Source of the DNA: an uncultured Eubacteriales bacterium
GTDB lineage: Bacteria; Bacillota; Clostridia; Lachnospirales; Lachnospiraceae
NCBI GenBank assembly: GCA_900314525.1
Contig: OMVN01000023.1
Location: 1-34,154 of the forward strand
Direction of reading: 5' to 3'
DNA: 34,154 bases
The translations under genes were made by a program, and so were the position numbers. Shown here in pieces: positions 11,429 to 23,036 of this stretch (positions are counted from its first letter, which is position 1; each line of letters starts with the position of its first letter). Below the pieces are notes generated by a model that worked only from the letters and a program-made list of their open reading frames with translations, was not told the origin of the DNA and did no database searches.

Positions 11429-11692
11429 AAATTTAAGGCTGTGAAGGGAAAGAGTAGTTTATGCGACTCCTTTAAGAGAGTATCCGGATGGTGCGAGGAT
11501 ATAAGGAGACATTTATGAATACACCCCAGAGCTGCTACCTGAAAATATTATTAGTAGGGATAGACGGGAGCGCCCGTTATAGCGTTAGAGTGTGACAGCA
11601 CTTGTTGAGGAGGATTTCGTGAGGAGTCCTTGATTTTGAGGTGGTACCGCATATTATGCCCTCTGCAGTCTATGATTGCAGGGGGCTTTTTT
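11429..11692 (+). promoter_or_regulatory. T-box riboswitch for tRNA-Tyr
   Basis: A leader RNA that binds uncharged tRNA-Tyr and controls read-through into tyrS. The T-box core GAGGTGGTACCGC lies at 11638-11650. It is followed by the terminator stem GCCCTCTGCA (11658-11667) with TGCAGGGGGC (11677-11686) and six T. A probable specifier codon TAC (Tyr) lies at 11520-11522 in the context GAATACA, matching the downstream gene. The stem I helices were not folded in full. Uncharged tRNA pairs with the UGGU of the T-box and favours the antiterminator. Confidence 0.93.
11658..11692 (+). terminator. T-box-controlled terminator
   Basis: A 10-bp stem with one G-U pair, a nine-base loop and T6. It is the switchable terminator of the T-box leader, 16 bases before tyrS. 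Confidence 0.9.
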
Positions 11693-12988: not shown

Positions 12989-13009
12989 CGTCAAATGGAG
13001 GAATTTTAA

Positions 13010-15616
13010 GTGAAAAATATTGTGGCAGGAATTCTTGCACATGTTGATGCGGGAAAAACTACATTATCAGAAGCAGTTTTATATATGAGCGGTGCCATAA
13101 GAAGTGCTGGAAGAGTGGACAATGGCAATTCATTTCTTGATAATTTTTATCTTGAACGACAGAGAGGAATTACCATTTTTTCAAAACAGGCTGGCATCAG
13201 ATGGAATGAAACTTCTGTCACAATTCTTGATACTCCAGGACATGTAGATTTTTCGGCAGAGATGGAGAGGACACTCTCGGTAATTGATTATGGAATATTA
13301 ATAGTAAGTGGATTTGAATCTCTGGCTAATCAGACAGTGAATCTATTCAGACTTTTAAAAAGATATAATAAACCAGTTTTCATTTTTGTAAATAAGATGG
13401 ACATGGCACTGTCAGATAAGGCGGTAATCTACGATGAAATAAGAAATAAACTTTCAAAGGACTGTGTTGATTTTACAGACTTAAATTTGGAGGAAACAAA
13501 AGAGTCCATAGCCTCATGTTCTGAAAAGATTATGGATAAATATTTATCCTCCGGTGAAATAGAAAAAGAAGATATAGCAGAATCGATAAAAAATCGAGAA
13601 ATCTTCCCGTGCTTTTTTGGCTCGGCCCTTAAGATACAGGGAGTAAAGGAATTTATGGACGGTTTCACAGAATTTGCAAGGGCCGACAATTACTCTGATA
13701 TAAATTCAGGAATCATATACAAAATAAGCCGTGATGACAAGAATAACAGATTAACTCACTTAAGGGTTATGGGTGGAAGAATAAAAGTTAAAGATACCCT
13801 CGAAATTTATGGTGAGAAAATTAATCAGATCAGGTTCTACAACGGAGACAAATTTGAGATCAGGGATTTTGCAATGCCAGGTGAAATTTGTGTAATAACT
13901 GGAATTACTAAATCAAAGGCAGGTGACATGTTTGGAAATGTGCCTGATAATGCAGTCAAAAATATACTAGAACCATTTATGTCATATGAACTGAAATTTG
14001 ACGATAAAGTTAATATGTTAGAAACTGTAAGAAAAATACGAATGCTTGAAGAGGAAATACCTGAAATAGCCGTAATGTGGAATGAGATAACAAAGAGTAT
14101 TTCTATTAAGGTTATGGGTGAGGTTCAGACTGAGGTTATAAAAGATATAATAAAGAACAGATTTGACCTTGATGTGAAATTTGGCAAGGGAAATATATCA
14201 TATAAGGAGACAATTGGAAATACAGTAGAGGGAGTGGGACACTTTGAACCTCTTAGACACTATGCAGAAGTTCATCTTCTTATGGAACCTTTAGAGAGGG
14301 GAAGTGGGCTTGTGTTTGATACTGATGTCAGCACAGACTTGCTGAGTCTAAACTGGCAGAGACTTATTCTAACTCACCTTAAAGAGAAGGTTCATACAGG
14401 AGTGCTGACCAACTCACCTCTGACAGATATGAGAATAACCCTTGTAAATGGAAAATCTCACATAAAACATACTGAGGGCGGGGATATGAGACAGGCCACA
14501 TATAGAGCTTTGAGGCAGGGACTGATGAAAGCAGAATCAATTCTTTTAGAGCCATACTACGAATTTACTCTAAGTGTGCCGAAGAGTACAACAGGAAGAG
14601 CAGTAACTAATCTTGAGCAGAGAGGTGCTAACTTTGACATAACCAGTAATGATGGAGAAAATACTGTAATTGAAGGAAGAGGACCAGTTAGTACTCTGAT
14701 TGATTACGTGCTTGTAGTAAAGGCATTCACAAAAGGTGCTGGAAACATATCATTTAAATTTGCAGGCTATGATATTTGCAAAAATGCCCAGAATATTGTG
14801 AATGAAATTAATTATGACCCCGTTGCAGATATAAATAATTCACCAGATTCTGTATTCTGCAGTCATGGTGTAGGAACAATTGTACCGTGGTCAGAAGTTG
14901 AGAATCACATGCACCTTGAGCTTCGAAATAAAGAAAAGACCAGTGAGCTAAATACATTAAACGTTATAAACAGGCAGAATACAAGAGAACAGAAAACAGG
15001 ATATGAGGCTGATGCAGAACTTTTAGAGATATTTAACAGGACGTATAAATCAGCAAATGTCTCGAATAAATCAAAAGGTTCAAAGAAAATCGAAGAACGG
15101 ATAAAACCAGTAAAACCATATGAATACAAACCAGTAAAGCATAAGGATAAATATCTGCTTGTGGATGGATACAATGTAATATTTGCATGGAAGGAATTAA
15201 GGGAACTTGCCCAGGTAAACATTGATTCTGCAAGAGACAAACTGATTGAAATTATGTCTAATTACCAGGGATACAAAAAAATTCATATGATGATTGTATT
15301 CGATGCATACAAAGTTAGAGGCTTTGGCGGAGAACAGAAAAATTTTGGTAATGTGTGTGTGGTATTTACAAAAGAGGCATGTACTGCAGACAGATATATA
15401 GAAAAATTTGCCCATGATTATGGAAAAAAATATGATATTACCGTTGCTACATCAGATGGTGTGGAGCAGGTTATTATACTTGGTCAGGGCTGCAATCTGA
15501 TATCATCAAGAGAATTTGAAAAGGAAGTTGAAATTACAAATATCCAGATAAGAGAAAATTTAGAGGAAATAAAAAAGAGCCTTAAGAATGGCATAAGCAT
15601 AGAGACGGAGGATTAA
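13010..15616 (+). CDS. Tet(M)/EF-G-like translational GTPase fused to a Rae1/YacP-like NYN endoribonuclease domain
   Basis: An 868-residue cytoplasmic protein. The N-terminal GTPase has G1 AHVDAGKT (10-17), the RGIT switch (52-55), DTPGH (74-78) and NKMD (128-131). EF-G/Tet(M)-like domains II-V follow to about residue 590, including TEGGDMRQATYRALRQG in domain IV. Residues 590-715 form a linker with a Cys/His-bearing segment (SVFCSHGVGTIVPW) and a basic stretch. Residues 715-845 form a NYN/PIN-like domain with LLVDGYN, VFDAYKV, TADRYIE and VATSDGVEQ; candidate metal-binding Asp719, 765, 794 and 816 are all present. Free-standing Rae1 (YacP) cleaves mRNA in the ribosomal A site. The GTG start follows GGAGG by eight bases. 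An automatic tetracycline-resistance label would be unsafe. Role inferred: ribosome-associated mRNA cleavage or rescue. Confidence 0.9.
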   Translation: MKNIVAGILAHVDAGKTTLSEAVLYMSGAIRSAGRVDNGNSFLDNFYLERQRGITIFSKQAGIRWNETSVTILDTPGHVDFSAEMERTLSVIDYGILIVSGFESLANQTVNLFRLLKRYNKPVFIFVNKMDMALSDKAVIYDEIRNKLSKDCVDFTDLNLEETKESIASCSEKIMDKYLSSGEIEKEDIAESIKNREIFPCFFGSALKIQGVKEFMDGFTEFARADNYSDINSGIIYKISRDDKNNRLTHLRVMGGRIKVKDTLEIYGEKINQIRFYNGDKFEIRDFAMPGEICVITGITKSKAGDMFGNVPDNAVKNILEPFMSYELKFDDKVNMLETVRKIRMLEEEIPEIAVMWNEITKSISIKVMGEVQTEVIKDIIKNRFDLDVKFGKGNISYKETIGNTVEGVGHFEPLRHYAEVHLLMEPLERGSGLVFDTDVSTDLLSLNWQRLILTHLKEKVHTGVLTNSPLTDMRITLVNGKSHIKHTEGGDMRQATYRALRQGLMKAESILLEPYYEFTLSVPKSTTGRAVTNLEQRGANFDITSNDGENTVIEGRGPVSTLIDYVLVVKAFTKGAGNISFKFAGYDICKNAQNIVNEINYDPVADINNSPDSVFCSHGVGTIVPWSEVENHMHLELRNKEKTSELNTLNVINRQNTREQKTGYEADAELLEIFNRTYKSANVSNKSKGSKKIEERIKPVKPYEYKPVKHKDKYLLVDGYNVIFAWKELRELAQVNIDSARDKLIEIMSNYQGYKKIHMMIVFDAYKVRGFGGEQKNFGNVCVVFTKEACTADRYIEKFAHDYGKKYDITVATSDGVEQVIILGQGCNLISSREFEKEVEITNIQIRENLEEIKKSLKNGISIETED

Positions 15617-18599: not shown

Positions 18600-18624
18600 A
18601 TAATGGGAAAAGGAGATGGACAGC

Positions 18625-19152
18625 ATGAGATACGTTATTACAGGTAAAAACATTGATGTTACAGAGGGATTAAGGAACGCAGTTCAGGAGAAAATTGGAA
18701 AATTAGAGAAATACTTTACAGCTGATACAGAGGTTTATGTTACTCTTAGCGTAGAGAAAGAGAGACAGAAGATAGAGGTTACTATTCCTGTCAAAGGTAA
18801 TATAATCAGATCAGAACAGGTAAGCAGTGATATGTATGTATCAATTGATTTGGTTGAAGAGATAATTGAGAGACAATTGAAAAAATATAAGAATAAGATC
18901 ATTGATAAGAAACAGGCAAGAGATAATTTTAATCAGGCATTCATTGAGAAAGATTACGATGAAGATGATTCAGTTAAGATTATCAGAACTAAGAAATTTG
19001 GAATTAAGCCGATGGATCCTGAAGAAGCATGTATTCAGATGGAACTCTTAGGACATAATTTCTATGTATTCTCTAATTCAGATACAGATGAAGTTAATGT
19101 AGTATACAAGAGAAAAGGCAATACATATGGTCTTATTGAACCAGAGTTTTAA
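18625..19152 (+). CDS. hpf: Ribosome hibernation promoting factor, long form
   Basis: It binds the 30S subunit and pairs 70S ribosomes into inactive 100S dimers in slow growth. The 175-residue product has the N-terminal RaiA/HPF domain (about 1-95, MRYVITGKNIDVTEGLR onward). A charged linker leads to the C-terminal dimerisation domain (about 115-175, KFGIKPMDPEEACIQMELLGH) that defines long HPF. The frame also opens at an ATG at 18616, but that codon touches the AGGAG ribosome binding site. The ATG at 18625 is nine bases away, and homologues start MRY. It has its own promoter, leader and terminator, and secA follows on a separate promoter. Confidence 0.95.
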   Translation: MRYVITGKNIDVTEGLRNAVQEKIGKLEKYFTADTEVYVTLSVEKERQKIEVTIPVKGNIIRSEQVSSDMYVSIDLVEEIIERQLKKYKNKIIDKKQARDNFNQAFIEKDYDEDDSVKIIRTKKFGIKPMDPEEACIQMELLGHNFYVFSNSDTDEVNVVYKRKGNTYGLIEPEF

Positions 19153-19168
19153 ATAATAATTGATTATG

Positions 19169-19198
19169 AGCTGTCCACGAATTGTGGGCAGCTTTTTT
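19169..19198 (+). terminator. Terminator of hpf
   Basis: AGCTGTCCAC (19169-19178), loop GAATT and GTGGGCAGCT (19184-19193) form a 10-bp stem with one G-U pair followed by T6. Confidence 0.92.
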
Positions 19199-19259
19199 AT
19201 GAAAATAGAGTAATATGGCATATATGGTGGGGATAGGACAACTTTTTTTGCCATAAATA

Positions 19260-19288
19260 TTGAATAAAATGCATAAAAGTGTTAGAAT
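19260..19288 (+). promoter_or_regulatory. Probable promoter of secA
   Basis: TTGAAT (19260-19265), a 17-base spacer and TAGAAT (19283-19288), about 60 bases before the secA start. Confidence 0.55.
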
Positions 19289-19348
19289 TGAGTGAAAAAT
19301 TAAATTGGATTACTTTATTTATCCATGAGAAAGATTAGGAGATTTACA

Positions 19349-21925
19349 ATGGGTCTTGTATCAAAAGTATTTGGAACACATAGCGAGAGAGAAATCAATC
19401 GTATTAAGCCGGTTGTTAAGAAGATAGTTGCACTTAGACCGGAAATGATGGAATTAAGTGATGATCAGTTAAGAGATAAAACAGAGGAGTTTAAGAAGAG
19501 ATTATCAGAGGATGAGACACTTGATGACTTATTACCAGAGGCATATGCAGTAGTAAGAGAGGCAGCAAGAAGAGTCTTAGGCACAGAACATTATGAATGC
19601 CAGCTTATGGGTGGTATTATTTTACATCAGGGAAGAATCGCTGAGATGAAAACTGGTGAAGGTAAGACACAGACATGTCTTCTTCCAGCATATTTGAATG
19701 CATTAGATGGGAAGGGTGTCCATGTTGTAACTGTCAACGATTACCTTGCACATCGTGATGCGGAGTGGATGGGACAGGTACATAGATTCCTTGGACTTAC
19801 AGTAGGATGTGTATTAAATGACATGGAAAATGATGCCAGAAGAGATGCATACAACTGTGATATTACATATATTACAAATAATGAATTAGGTTTTGATTAC
19901 TTAAGAGATAACATGGTTATCTACAAAAAGGAACTTGTTCAGAGAGGTCTTAATTTTGCCATCGTGGATGAGGTGGATTCAGTTCTTATCGATGAGGCAA
20001 GAACACCACTTATTATTTCAGGACAGAGTGGAAAATCAACAAAACTTTATGAGACATGTGATATACTTGCTCATCAGTTAAAGAGGGGTAAGGAAAGTGC
20101 TGAACTTACAAAGATGGCCGCCATCATGAAGGAAGAAATTGAAGAGGATGGCGATTTCATAGTCAATGAGAAGGATAGAGTAGTTAACCTTACAGCAGAA
20201 GGTGTTAAGAAGGTTGAGAAATTCTTTAGCATAGAAAACCTTGCAGATCCTGAAAACCTTGAAATACAGCACAACGTAATTCTTGCACTCAGAGCTAATA
20301 ACTTAATGTTCAAGGATAAGGATTATGTAGTTAAAGATGATGAAGTTCTTATAGTAGACGAATTCACAGGTCGTATTATGCCAGGTAGAAGATATTCTGA
20401 TGGTCTTCATCAGGCCATAGAGGCAAAGGAACATGTTAAGGTTAATAGAGAGAGCAAGACACTTGCAACAATTACATTCCAGAATTTCTTTAATAAATAT
20501 AATAAGAAATGTGGTATGACAGGTACAGCTCTTACAGAGGAACAGGAATTTAGAAATATTTATGGAATGGACGTTGTTGAAGTTCCAACAAACAGACCAA
20601 TTGCCAGAATAGACAAAGAAGATGCTGTTTATAAGACAAAGAAAGGCAAGTTAAATGCCATCGTCAATGAAATTGTAGAGACACACAAGACTGGACAGCC
20701 AGTATTAGTTGGTACTATTACAATTGATTCTTCAGAGGAAATTAGCAGTCTTTTAAAGAAAAAAGGAATTCAGCATAATGTCTTAAATGCAAAGTTCCAT
20801 GAATTAGAGGCAGAAATTGTTGCACAGGCTGGTATATTTGGAGCAGTAACAATTGCAACAAATATGGCAGGACGTGGTACTGATATTAAACTTGATGATG
20901 AGTCGAAAAAGGCTGGAGGATTAAAGATTATCGGTACAGAGCGACATGAGTCAAGACGTATTGACAATCAGCTCCGTGGACGTGCAGGTAGACAGGGTGA
21001 TCCTGGACAGTCACAATTCTTCATCTCTCTTGAAGATGATCTTATGAGACTTTTCGGATCAGAAAAACTCATGAAGACATTTAATGCACTTGGCATAGAT
21101 GAAAACGAACCCATTGCACATGGAATGTTATCAAGAACAATCGAAAAGGCACAGAAGAGAATAGAGGGAAATAACTACGGAATCAGAAAGAATTTGTTAG
21201 AATATGATCAGGTTAACAATGATCAAAGAGAGACAATCTATGCTGAGAGAAGAAAAGTCTTAGATGGTGACAACATGAGAGATTCTATTTATAAGATGAT
21301 TACAGATGTTGTCGAGAGCAAAGTAGATATGTGTATTTCTGATGATCAGCCAGCATCAGAGTGGAATCTTGTTGAACTTAATGAATTAATGCTTCCAATA
21401 TTCCCATTTGACGTTATCGAATTAGACGATGAGCAGCTTAAGAAATTCAAGAAAGCAGATATGGTTCAGTATCTCAAAGAGAAGGCTGTTAAATTATATG
21501 AGGCAAAAGAAGCTGAATTCCCAGAACAGGAACAGATAAGAGAATTAGAGAGAGTTATTCTTCTCAAAGTAATTGATAGAAAATGGATGGATCATATTGA
21601 TGATATGGACCAGCTTCGTACAGGTATTGGTCTTCAGGCATATGGACAGAGGGATCCTGTTGTAGAATACAGAATGGTAGGATTTGATATGTTTAATGAA
21701 ATGACATATGCTATCATGGAAGATACAGTTAAATCACTGCTTCATGTTAAAGTAGAGCAGAAGATTGAAAGAGAACAGGTTGCAAAGGTAACAGGTACAA
21801 ATAAAGATGAATCTACAGTAAAGGCTCCAAAGAAGAGAGAACAGGCTAAGATTTATCCAAATGATCCATGTCCATGCGGAAGTGGATTAAAATATAAACA
21901 GTGTCATGGTAAGAAGGTGATTTAA
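19349..21925 (+). CDS. secA: Protein translocase ATPase SecA
   Basis: The motor that pushes preproteins through SecYEG. At 858 residues it has Walker A GEGKT (about 103-107), the DEAD-type Walker B followed by [11 protein letters not shown], the [11 protein letters not shown] segment and [12 protein letters not shown] motif VI. It also has the helical scaffold region and a C-terminal zinc motif [13 protein letters not shown], which binds SecB or ribosomes in other species. The frame is open from an ATG at 19325, but AGGAG at 19337-19341 lies seven bases before the ATG at 19349, and SecA proteins usually start MGLV. prfB starts directly after the stop. Confidence 0.97.
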
Positions 21926-23036
21926 GTGGTTGAATTAGAACAGTACAAATACGATCTTGCTCAATATGATAATGCACTTAATGAATTGAGGGATTCCCTT
22001 TGACTTAGCGTCAAAGGGACAAAAGATAGAAGAATTAGAGAGAACAATGGAGGCACCTGGATTCTGGGATGACGCAGAGAAGGCTCAGAAGTATGTGCTT
22101 GAGCTGAATGCTCTTAAGAGTGATATCACTAAGTTTAGTGATCTTCACTCTGAATATGAGGATTTAATGACACTCATCGAGATGGGATTTGAGGAAAATG
22201 ATCAGGCCATTGTAGAAGAGGTTGAAAGCGAGTATAACAAGTTTATATCTGATTATGAATCACTTAAGATTTCCACACTATTGTCAGATGAATATGATGG
22301 TTATGGTGCTATTCTTACACTCCATGCTGGAGCAGGCGGAACAGAGTCGTGTGACTGGACAGAGATGCTCTCTAGAATGTACAGAAGATATGCAGATAAG
22401 AAGGGCTTTGGTGTTGAAATACTGGACTTTCTCGTTGGAGATGAGGCAGGAATGAAATCTGTTACTATGCAGATAAATGGACAGAATGCTTTTGGGTATC
22501 TCAAGTCTGAGAAAGGTGTTCACAGACTTGTTAGAATTTCACCGTTTAATGCGGCAGGAAAAAGGCAGACCTCATTCGCATCCTGCGATGTTATGCCAGA
22601 TATAGAAGAGGATCTTGATATTGAGATAAATGAAGATGACTTAAAAATTGACACATACAGAAGTAGTGGTGCTGGTGGACAGCATATTAACAAGACTTCA
22701 TCAGCAGTTAGAATTACACATCTTCCTACTGGAATAGTTGTGCAGTGTCAGAATGAGAGATCGCAGTTTCAAAATAAAGATAAAGCGATGCAGATGTTAA
22801 AGGCAAAGTTATATCTTTTGAAAAAGGAAGCCAATGCTGAAAAGATATTAGATATCAGAGGCGAAGTTAAGGAAATTAATTTTGGAAATCAGATAAGATC
22901 CTATGTAATGCAGCCATATACAATGGTTAAGGACCACAGGACTAATTTTGAGACAGGAAATGTAGGTGCAGTTCTTGATGGCGATTTGGATCCGTTTATT
23001 ATTGAGTATTTAAAGTGGAAAAATTTAAAGAAATAG
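21926..23036 (+). CDS. prfB: Peptide chain release factor 2, programmed +1 frameshift
   Basis: RF2 ends translation at UGA and UAA. A GTG start at 21926 follows AAGGTG by six bases. After 25 codons the frame meets CTT TGA C (22001-22003 is the stop), and a +1 shift at CTT resumes at GAC (22002). The joined product, 21926-22000 plus 22002-23036, is 369 residues. In that numbering the UGA-reading SPF motif falls at 205-207 and the catalytic GGQ at 250-252, the same positions as in E. coli RF2, which supports the joining. The upstream Shine-Dalgarno-like stimulator GAGGG is five bases from CTT. The site lies in a 10-bp hairpin. This is autoregulation: low RF2 slows UGA reading and favours the shift. 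Confidence 0.96.
21995..22019 (+). promoter_or_regulatory. Hairpin enclosing the prfB frameshift site
   Basis: TCCCTTTGAC (21995-22004) and GTCAAAGGGA (22010-22019) form a perfect 10-bp stem with loop TTAGC. The slippery CTT, the TGA stop and the first +1 codon all lie in its 5' arm. Confidence 0.7.

Follow-up and report, generated by a model that had tools for sequence, protein, structure and literature searches.

The window, here meaning the whole stretch of 34,154 nucleotides that was analysed (contig OMVN01000023.1 of an uncultured Lachnospiraceae bacterium), carries on its forward strand an open reading frame that is confirmed, as far as its sequence can be read, as an EF-G-type GTPase and a YacP/Rae1-type NYN domain in one chain. 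Its features are listed below by position in the window, with residue numbers of the product in brackets.

12997..13001, + strand: ribosome-binding site GGAGG, from reading of the sequence
13010..15616, + strand: whole fused gene, 868 aa, GTG start
13022..13675, + strand: GTPase domain (residues 5-222), Pfam GTP_EFTU 7e-47, with G1, G3 and G4 intact
13706..13936, + strand: EF-G-type domain II (233-309), Pfam EF-G_D2
13973..14188, + strand: EF-G-type domain III (322-393), Pfam EFG_III, 24.1 bits, below the cut-off of 27
14189..14536, + strand: EF-G-type domain IV (394-509), Pfam EFG_IV 2e-18
14453..14488, + strand: domain IV tip, loop III (482-493), clade-specific AHxKHTxGGDF; in the alignment H484 is the EF-G His and K486 the Tet Pro position
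14543..14785, + strand: EF-G-type domain V (512-592), Pfam EFG_C 4e-18
14765..14917, + strand: conserved C-tail of the parent GTPase (586-636) with C590, C617 and H635, from the alignment of fused and stand-alone proteins
14918..15154, + strand: tether between GTPase and NYN domain (637-715), variable except for a short conserved stretch at about 670-679
15155..15595, + strand: NYN_YacP (Rae1-type) nuclease domain (716-862), Pfam 165.5 bits; 5mq8/5mq9 E 1.2e-25
15164..15166, + strand: acidic residue D719, pairs with Rae1 D7; 106/106 fused
15302..15304, + strand: acidic residue D765, pairs with Rae1 D53; 106/106 fused
15389..15391, + strand: acidic residue D794, pairs with Rae1 D81; 106/106 fused
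15455..15457, + strand: acidic residue D816, pairs with Rae1 D104; 106/106 fused

Curated Pfam cut-offs were exceeded by GTP_EFTU, EF-G_D2, EFG_IV, EFG_C and NYN_YacP, and not by EFG_III. The NYN_YacP score, to be read against a cut-off of 24.6 bits, places the domain in the Rae1/YacP family, and the match to the Bacillus subtilis YacP/Rae1 crystal chains 5mq8/5mq9 covers the C-terminal 164 amino acids. An earlier note on this DNA had described a complete translational GTPase and a Rae1-like nuclease in one chain, with candidate catalytic aspartates at 719, 765, 794 and 816. Its coordinates and residue numbers agree with the reading frame and with the 5mq8/5mq9 alignment, along which the pairing with Rae1 was counted in chain numbering, and the Pfam domains and intact catalytic set bear out both halves, the NYN fold being judged from sequence. 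The expectation that the four aspartates would be conserved among homologues also held: they were kept in 26 of 26 fused homologues in a first alignment and in every member of a larger one, and were present in 28/28 fused and 33/33 free YacP rows. The larger set of 106 fused proteins consists of the window protein, 25 proteins from the class survey and the 80 best matches from named genomes, and is biased towards the fused form because of how its members were picked. GTPase motifs G1, G3 and G4 were intact in at least 104 of these 106.

The fused NYN domain resembles Rae1/YacP of Bacillus subtilis (5mq8, 5mq9) in its domain family and its four acidic residues. Unlike that free protein, it is the C-terminal domain of a GTPase, and it differs from 33 free clostridial YacP proteins by clade-wide changes at three conserved positions (N725 to F/Y, H767 to Y and K775 to E). 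The C-terminus after G827 also varies, from 17 to 74 residues; because of these changes and this variable end, the cut site or specificity of the fused domain may differ. A search with PADLOC anti-phage defence models gave no family at E 0.01 for either the whole chain or the NYN part, and identity as a defence system was therefore rejected.

We found no conserved operon partner of the fusion; within 4.5 kb, the commonest neighbour family was shared by 15 of 105 loci, many flanks being short. In the window the fused gene is preceded by a tyrosyl-tRNA synthetase gene, before which lies a T-box leader at 11432-11666 (Rfam RF00230, 112.9 bits). A translation and secretion gene cluster at 18616-23036 comprises a ribosome hibernation factor (S30AE), SecA and a peptide chain release factor.

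Members of the GTPase clade also exist as stand-alone proteins of 624-729 amino acids. These share with the fused proteins a C-tail motif, GYxxCxN...DSVFCxxGxGxxVxW...MH, in which C590 is kept in 106/106 fused and 20/20 stand-alone proteins, C617 in 106/106 and 19/20, and H635 in 104/106 and 19/20. The earlier note had assigned a conserved-looking Cys/His segment to the linker at 590-715. Its conservation stands and its place in a fusion linker does not: since stand-alone relatives carry the segment (about 586-636) and mostly end just after it, with at most six further residues in 17 of 20, it is the C-tail of the GTPase itself. Outside the NYN domain, the part that these alignments mark as specific to the fusion is the tether and not the Cys/His segment. 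The tether measures 64-148 residues among the 106 fused proteins (median 80.5; 80 in the window protein) and is mostly variable, with a short conserved stretch in which E670 is kept in 101/106 and I674 in 102/106.

Among the stand-alone proteins, WP_069469564.1 from a Ligilactobacillus salivarius plasmid (L214:2986-4920) is 45% identical to the window protein over residues 1-637 and has the same loops and C-tail, while unlike the fusion it ends without tether and NYN domain. It is annotated as a member of the TetM/TetW/TetO/TetS family and reached 377 bits against the Tet cut-off of 775. Genome G106 holds two stand-alone copies (L202, L203), and the stand-alone GTPase of G376 (L209) is fast-evolving, with a shortened match.

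The fusion is common, being present in 127 of the 393 genomes surveyed in the class. NYN_YacP was matched in 250 of these genomes, and 164 have a match to the GTPase clade at E 1e-40; the latter comprise the 127 with a single frame of at least 800 amino acids (all with an NYN match), 28 with a stand-alone GTPase and nine that are fragmentary (eight with an NYN match). In the window's family, where fusion was inferred from frame length, NYN was matched in 108 of 120 genomes, in frames of at least 800 amino acids in 96, 516-690 in three and under 400 in nine; eight of the nine short frames were looked at, and G848 (a 271-residue frame at a contig end) was left out. In the family survey, G801 also carries a second NYN piece where one of its contigs ends. 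Of 398 genomes drawn from across the phylum and scored on GTPase match and frame length alone, 34 contained the GTPase clade at 1e-60, with frames of at least 857 amino acids in 28 and of 651-674 in six. Fused loci were present among named Lachnospiraceae, Oscillospiraceae, Ruminococcus, Fusibacter, Anaerovorax and others.

The reading that we favour, and to which we give about even chances on these sequence comparisons, is that the fused protein would be a housekeeping Rae1 tethered to a ribosome-binding GTPase, both using the A site in turn. Conservation of both active sites in the 106 aligned fused proteins supports it, as does the finding that free YacP is commoner where a stand-alone GTPase is present (NYN in 22 of 28 such genomes versus 93 of 229 without the GTPase clade; Fisher p 2e-4, uncorrected for kinship). 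These same counts show that the halves are separable, NYN occurring without the GTPase in 93 of 229 genomes and the GTPase without NYN in 6 of 28, which counts against the favoured reading and suits an alternative in which the fusion only links expression, the GTPase having an EF-G- or LepA-like job and the NYN domain doing the job of Rae1 unaided. Both parents exist apart and can be lost separately, separate GTPase and yacP genes show no linkage where coordinates are available, and most of the tether sequence varies, all as expected of independent halves. We nevertheless consider that alternative unlikely: the fused form accounts for 127 of the 164 GTPase-clade genomes and falls in one clade, the tether has its conserved stretch around E670 and I674, and free YacP is more frequent alongside the stand-alone GTPase. 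The genomes with a stand-alone GTPase and no NYN match are G288, G178, G068, G028, G025 and G054.

In the GTPase tree the one clade of fused proteins (support 100) contains 27 fused rows and the Ligilactobacillus stand-alone protein. An alternative tree, in which the fused rows form a clade without this protein, was not rejected (AU p 0.705) and had the higher likelihood; for this reason, secondary loss of the NYN domain in the Ligilactobacillus protein is not claimed. A single origin of the fusion is not rejected and, as judged from these trees, well supported. In the NYN tree, one clade (97/93) unites the fused domains with free yacP from the order to which the window belongs; the free copy of G284 and 33 free yacP from other families lie outside it. 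Branching inside this NYN clade is weakly settled, with 139 columns and AU p values of 0.217 and 0.2, and the tree leaves out the split gene of G804 (L239). Descent of the free NYN of G209 from a fusion, as a smaller tree had suggested, was dropped as a claim, since neither the tree enlarged by seven same-family free yacP genes nor the AU tests supported it.

Free yacP usually lies in the order mrnC-rlmB-yacP-sigH. Six of the seven free yacP genes examined in the window's family were directly behind mrnC-rlmB, the stand-alone GTPase being full in four of these seven genomes, partial in one and lacking in two. Among seven unfused genomes, yacP was between rlmB and sigH in five (gaps 599-711), beside sigH in G225 and elsewhere in G209. 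In fused genomes, rlmB was within 2 kb of sigH in 10 of the 26 examined, and in none of the ten was there an intact yacP between them; the gaps between matches were 17-326 bases in eight, 786 in G370 and 1990 in G384. The gap in G370 holds a broken yacP remnant (E 8e-9, two pieces with a stop). In the remaining 16 fused genomes the site gives no information, as sigH either lies away from rlmB or did not turn up in the search. Faint NYN-like matches in G299, G139 and G384 (E 0.010, 0.017 and 0.024) were not accepted as remnants, being near noise, for which the best value at the own-genome locus was 0.050. A 163-165-residue frame with a weak partial NYN_YacP match (E about 5e-4) is present in three f26 genomes, G120 (L230), G174 and G208, and is perhaps a distant NYN relative.

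The genome of the window itself has a single NYN match, that of the fusion. It has a cysS-mrnC-rlmB run without an NYN match, cysS being named by eye from the sequence, so the free gene is missing from behind rlmB; sigH was not found. The survey of fused genomes that the earlier note had called for gave an intact separate yacP in one of about 135 in the class (127 whole and 8 fragmentary); this one, G284 (L229), has both the fusion and an intact free yacP at the old rlmB site. Gene content and position suggest that in many Clostridia the fusion has taken over from a separate nuclease gene.

Other translational GTPases have roles in ribosome assembly, and the same neighbourhood could be read in favour of rRNA or tRNA maturation, with the GTPase as an assembly checkpoint and the NYN domain trimming precursor RNA: free yacP adjoins mrnC, rlmB and cysS, and RNA maturation is the older guess for YacP/NYN domains, cited as such within PMC4342817. 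This would be a quite improbable role for the fusion, as the fused gene is no longer in the mrnC-rlmB operon and Rae1, the one characterised relative, cuts mRNA in a translation-dependent manner according to the sections on it in PMC12320835 and PMC10100781.

The GTPase half shares the domain plan and the domain IV tip His with elongation factor G; this residue, H484 in the fusion, was kept in 103/106 fused and 18/20 stand-alone proteins. The score of the window protein on the EF-G model was nonetheless 277.1 bits, below the cut-off of 659.4, and its own genome has a separate EF-G of 714 amino acids that reached 1108 bits. The ribosomal protection proteins Tet(M), Tet(S) and Tet(W) have the same EF-G-like domain order and differ from the fusion in the domain IV tip and in lacking the Cys/His tail. 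On the NCBIfam Tet equivalog model NF012153 the window protein reached 414.3 bits against a cut-off of 775, compared with 879.8 for Tet(M), 852 for the Tet protein and 351.3 for the EF-G of its own genome. This genome-own Tet(M/W/O/S)-class protein (618 amino acids, contig C35, L216:2697-4553) is a true one, at 1255 bits against a cut-off of 1100, and is about 20 residues shorter than Tet(M). In loop III, 104/106 fused proteins have K where Tet has P (4/4); the Tet Pro509 feature, which sits in the drug site of Tet(M) as described in part of PMC8161019, is thus missing.

Among the 53 rows of a GTPase tree, the four Tet proteins formed one clade (100) and the 47 fused and stand-alone rows stood apart (97), on a separate long branch from Tet. 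This tree has just four Tet and two EF-G rows, both on long branches, and leaves out the split gene of G190 (L206); the split between Tet and the window's clade persisted in trees without EF-G. Phylogeny against Tet(M) and EF-G, proposed in the earlier note, therefore grouped fused and stand-alone proteins apart from both, and the description of the GTPase as Tet(M)-like fails in any specific sense, whereas the warning that a tetracycline-resistance label would mislead is upheld. Sequence and phylogeny place the GTPase half in a separate EF-G-shaped clade, distinct from both Tet and EF-G, and the fused protein is probably not the tetracycline-resistance protein suggested by automatic labels. 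Plasmid records holding at least 80% of the fused protein in one place numbered 2 of 72,556; one of them is a 518-kb non-mobilizable Monoglobus record, in which the protein is labelled 'translation factor GTPase family protein'. Resistance to tetracycline or another A-site drug, with a Tet-like GTPase freeing the ribosome and the NYN RNase assisting, has in its favour the Tet domain order, Tet(M) as the best solved-structure match (E 8e-68) and the 2015 filing under Tet in PMC4342817, and is very improbable for a protein that scores slightly over true EF-G and far under true Tet, lacks Pro509, branches separately, is so rare on plasmids and shares its genome with a true Tet protein.

The architecture itself is known. 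The relevant part of Atkinson 2015 (PMC4342817) describes the same order, an EF-G-like GTPase followed by a YacP-like NYN domain in one clostridial chain, in ten species of Clostridiales, filed as Tet with possible resistance, and the window frame agrees with that description. Whereas the fusion was placed in Tet in that part of the paper, here it stands apart from Tet, occurs in 127 of the 393 genomes of the class and appears to stand in for free yacP. A literature search, with subscription papers mostly outside its coverage, turned up neither functional nor later studies of it. To the published description the present analysis adds that the GTPase belongs to a distinct clade, that the tail is part of this GTPase, how widely the fusion is distributed, and its replacement of yacP.

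A Rae1 held by its partner GTPase, as favoured above, would build on what is described for the separate parts. Domain IV of EF-G-type factors reaches the A site, as described for Tet in a portion of PMC8161019, and Rae1 of Bacillus cuts mRNA in the A site in a translation-dependent manner, A-site entry at pauses being what is known of its trigger from the corresponding passages of PMC12320835 and PMC10100781. By analogy with its family, the GTPase half would dock at the factor site when a ribosome is stalled or slow, point domain IV towards the A site, hydrolyse GTP and then withdraw. The NYN domain, kept near by its tether of 64-148 residues, could then enter the emptied A site and cleave the mRNA in the manner of free Bacillus Rae1. 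The A site is the expected place of domain IV as well as of the Rae1 domain, and each should exclude the other from it, a difficulty that the earlier note did not raise. The two halves would therefore act in turn, and we infer that the GTPase comes first and the NYN domain second. The changes at 725, 767 and 775 may reflect this order. These residue changes, the expected exclusion in the A site and the retention of both genes in G284 also count against a tethered Rae1.

The interpretation in the earlier note, a ribosome-triggered mRNA cutter or a rescue factor coupling GTP hydrolysis to A-site cleavage, is partly supported overall, and none of the three refuting results that it had named beforehand appeared (a C-terminal domain unlike NYN, an Asp set that varies among homologues, or an intact separate yacP beside a decayed fusion domain in the same genome). 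More tentatively, and with somewhat less than even confidence, we suggest that this single chain may cut mRNA at a moment timed by GTP; the unassigned EF-G-like clade would then serve Clostridia as the factor that works with Rae1, joined to it in most lineages having the clade and separate in others. If this is true, the protein would to our knowledge be the first case of a translational GTPase that both brings a nuclease of its own and has a known role. The Tet-family labels on chromosomal GTPases of this clade probably make tetracycline resistance look more widespread in gut genomes than it is. The presence of the fusion in place of free Rae1 would name a partner GTPase for this nuclease and make the trigger of ribosome-dependent mRNA cleavage testable with a single protein.
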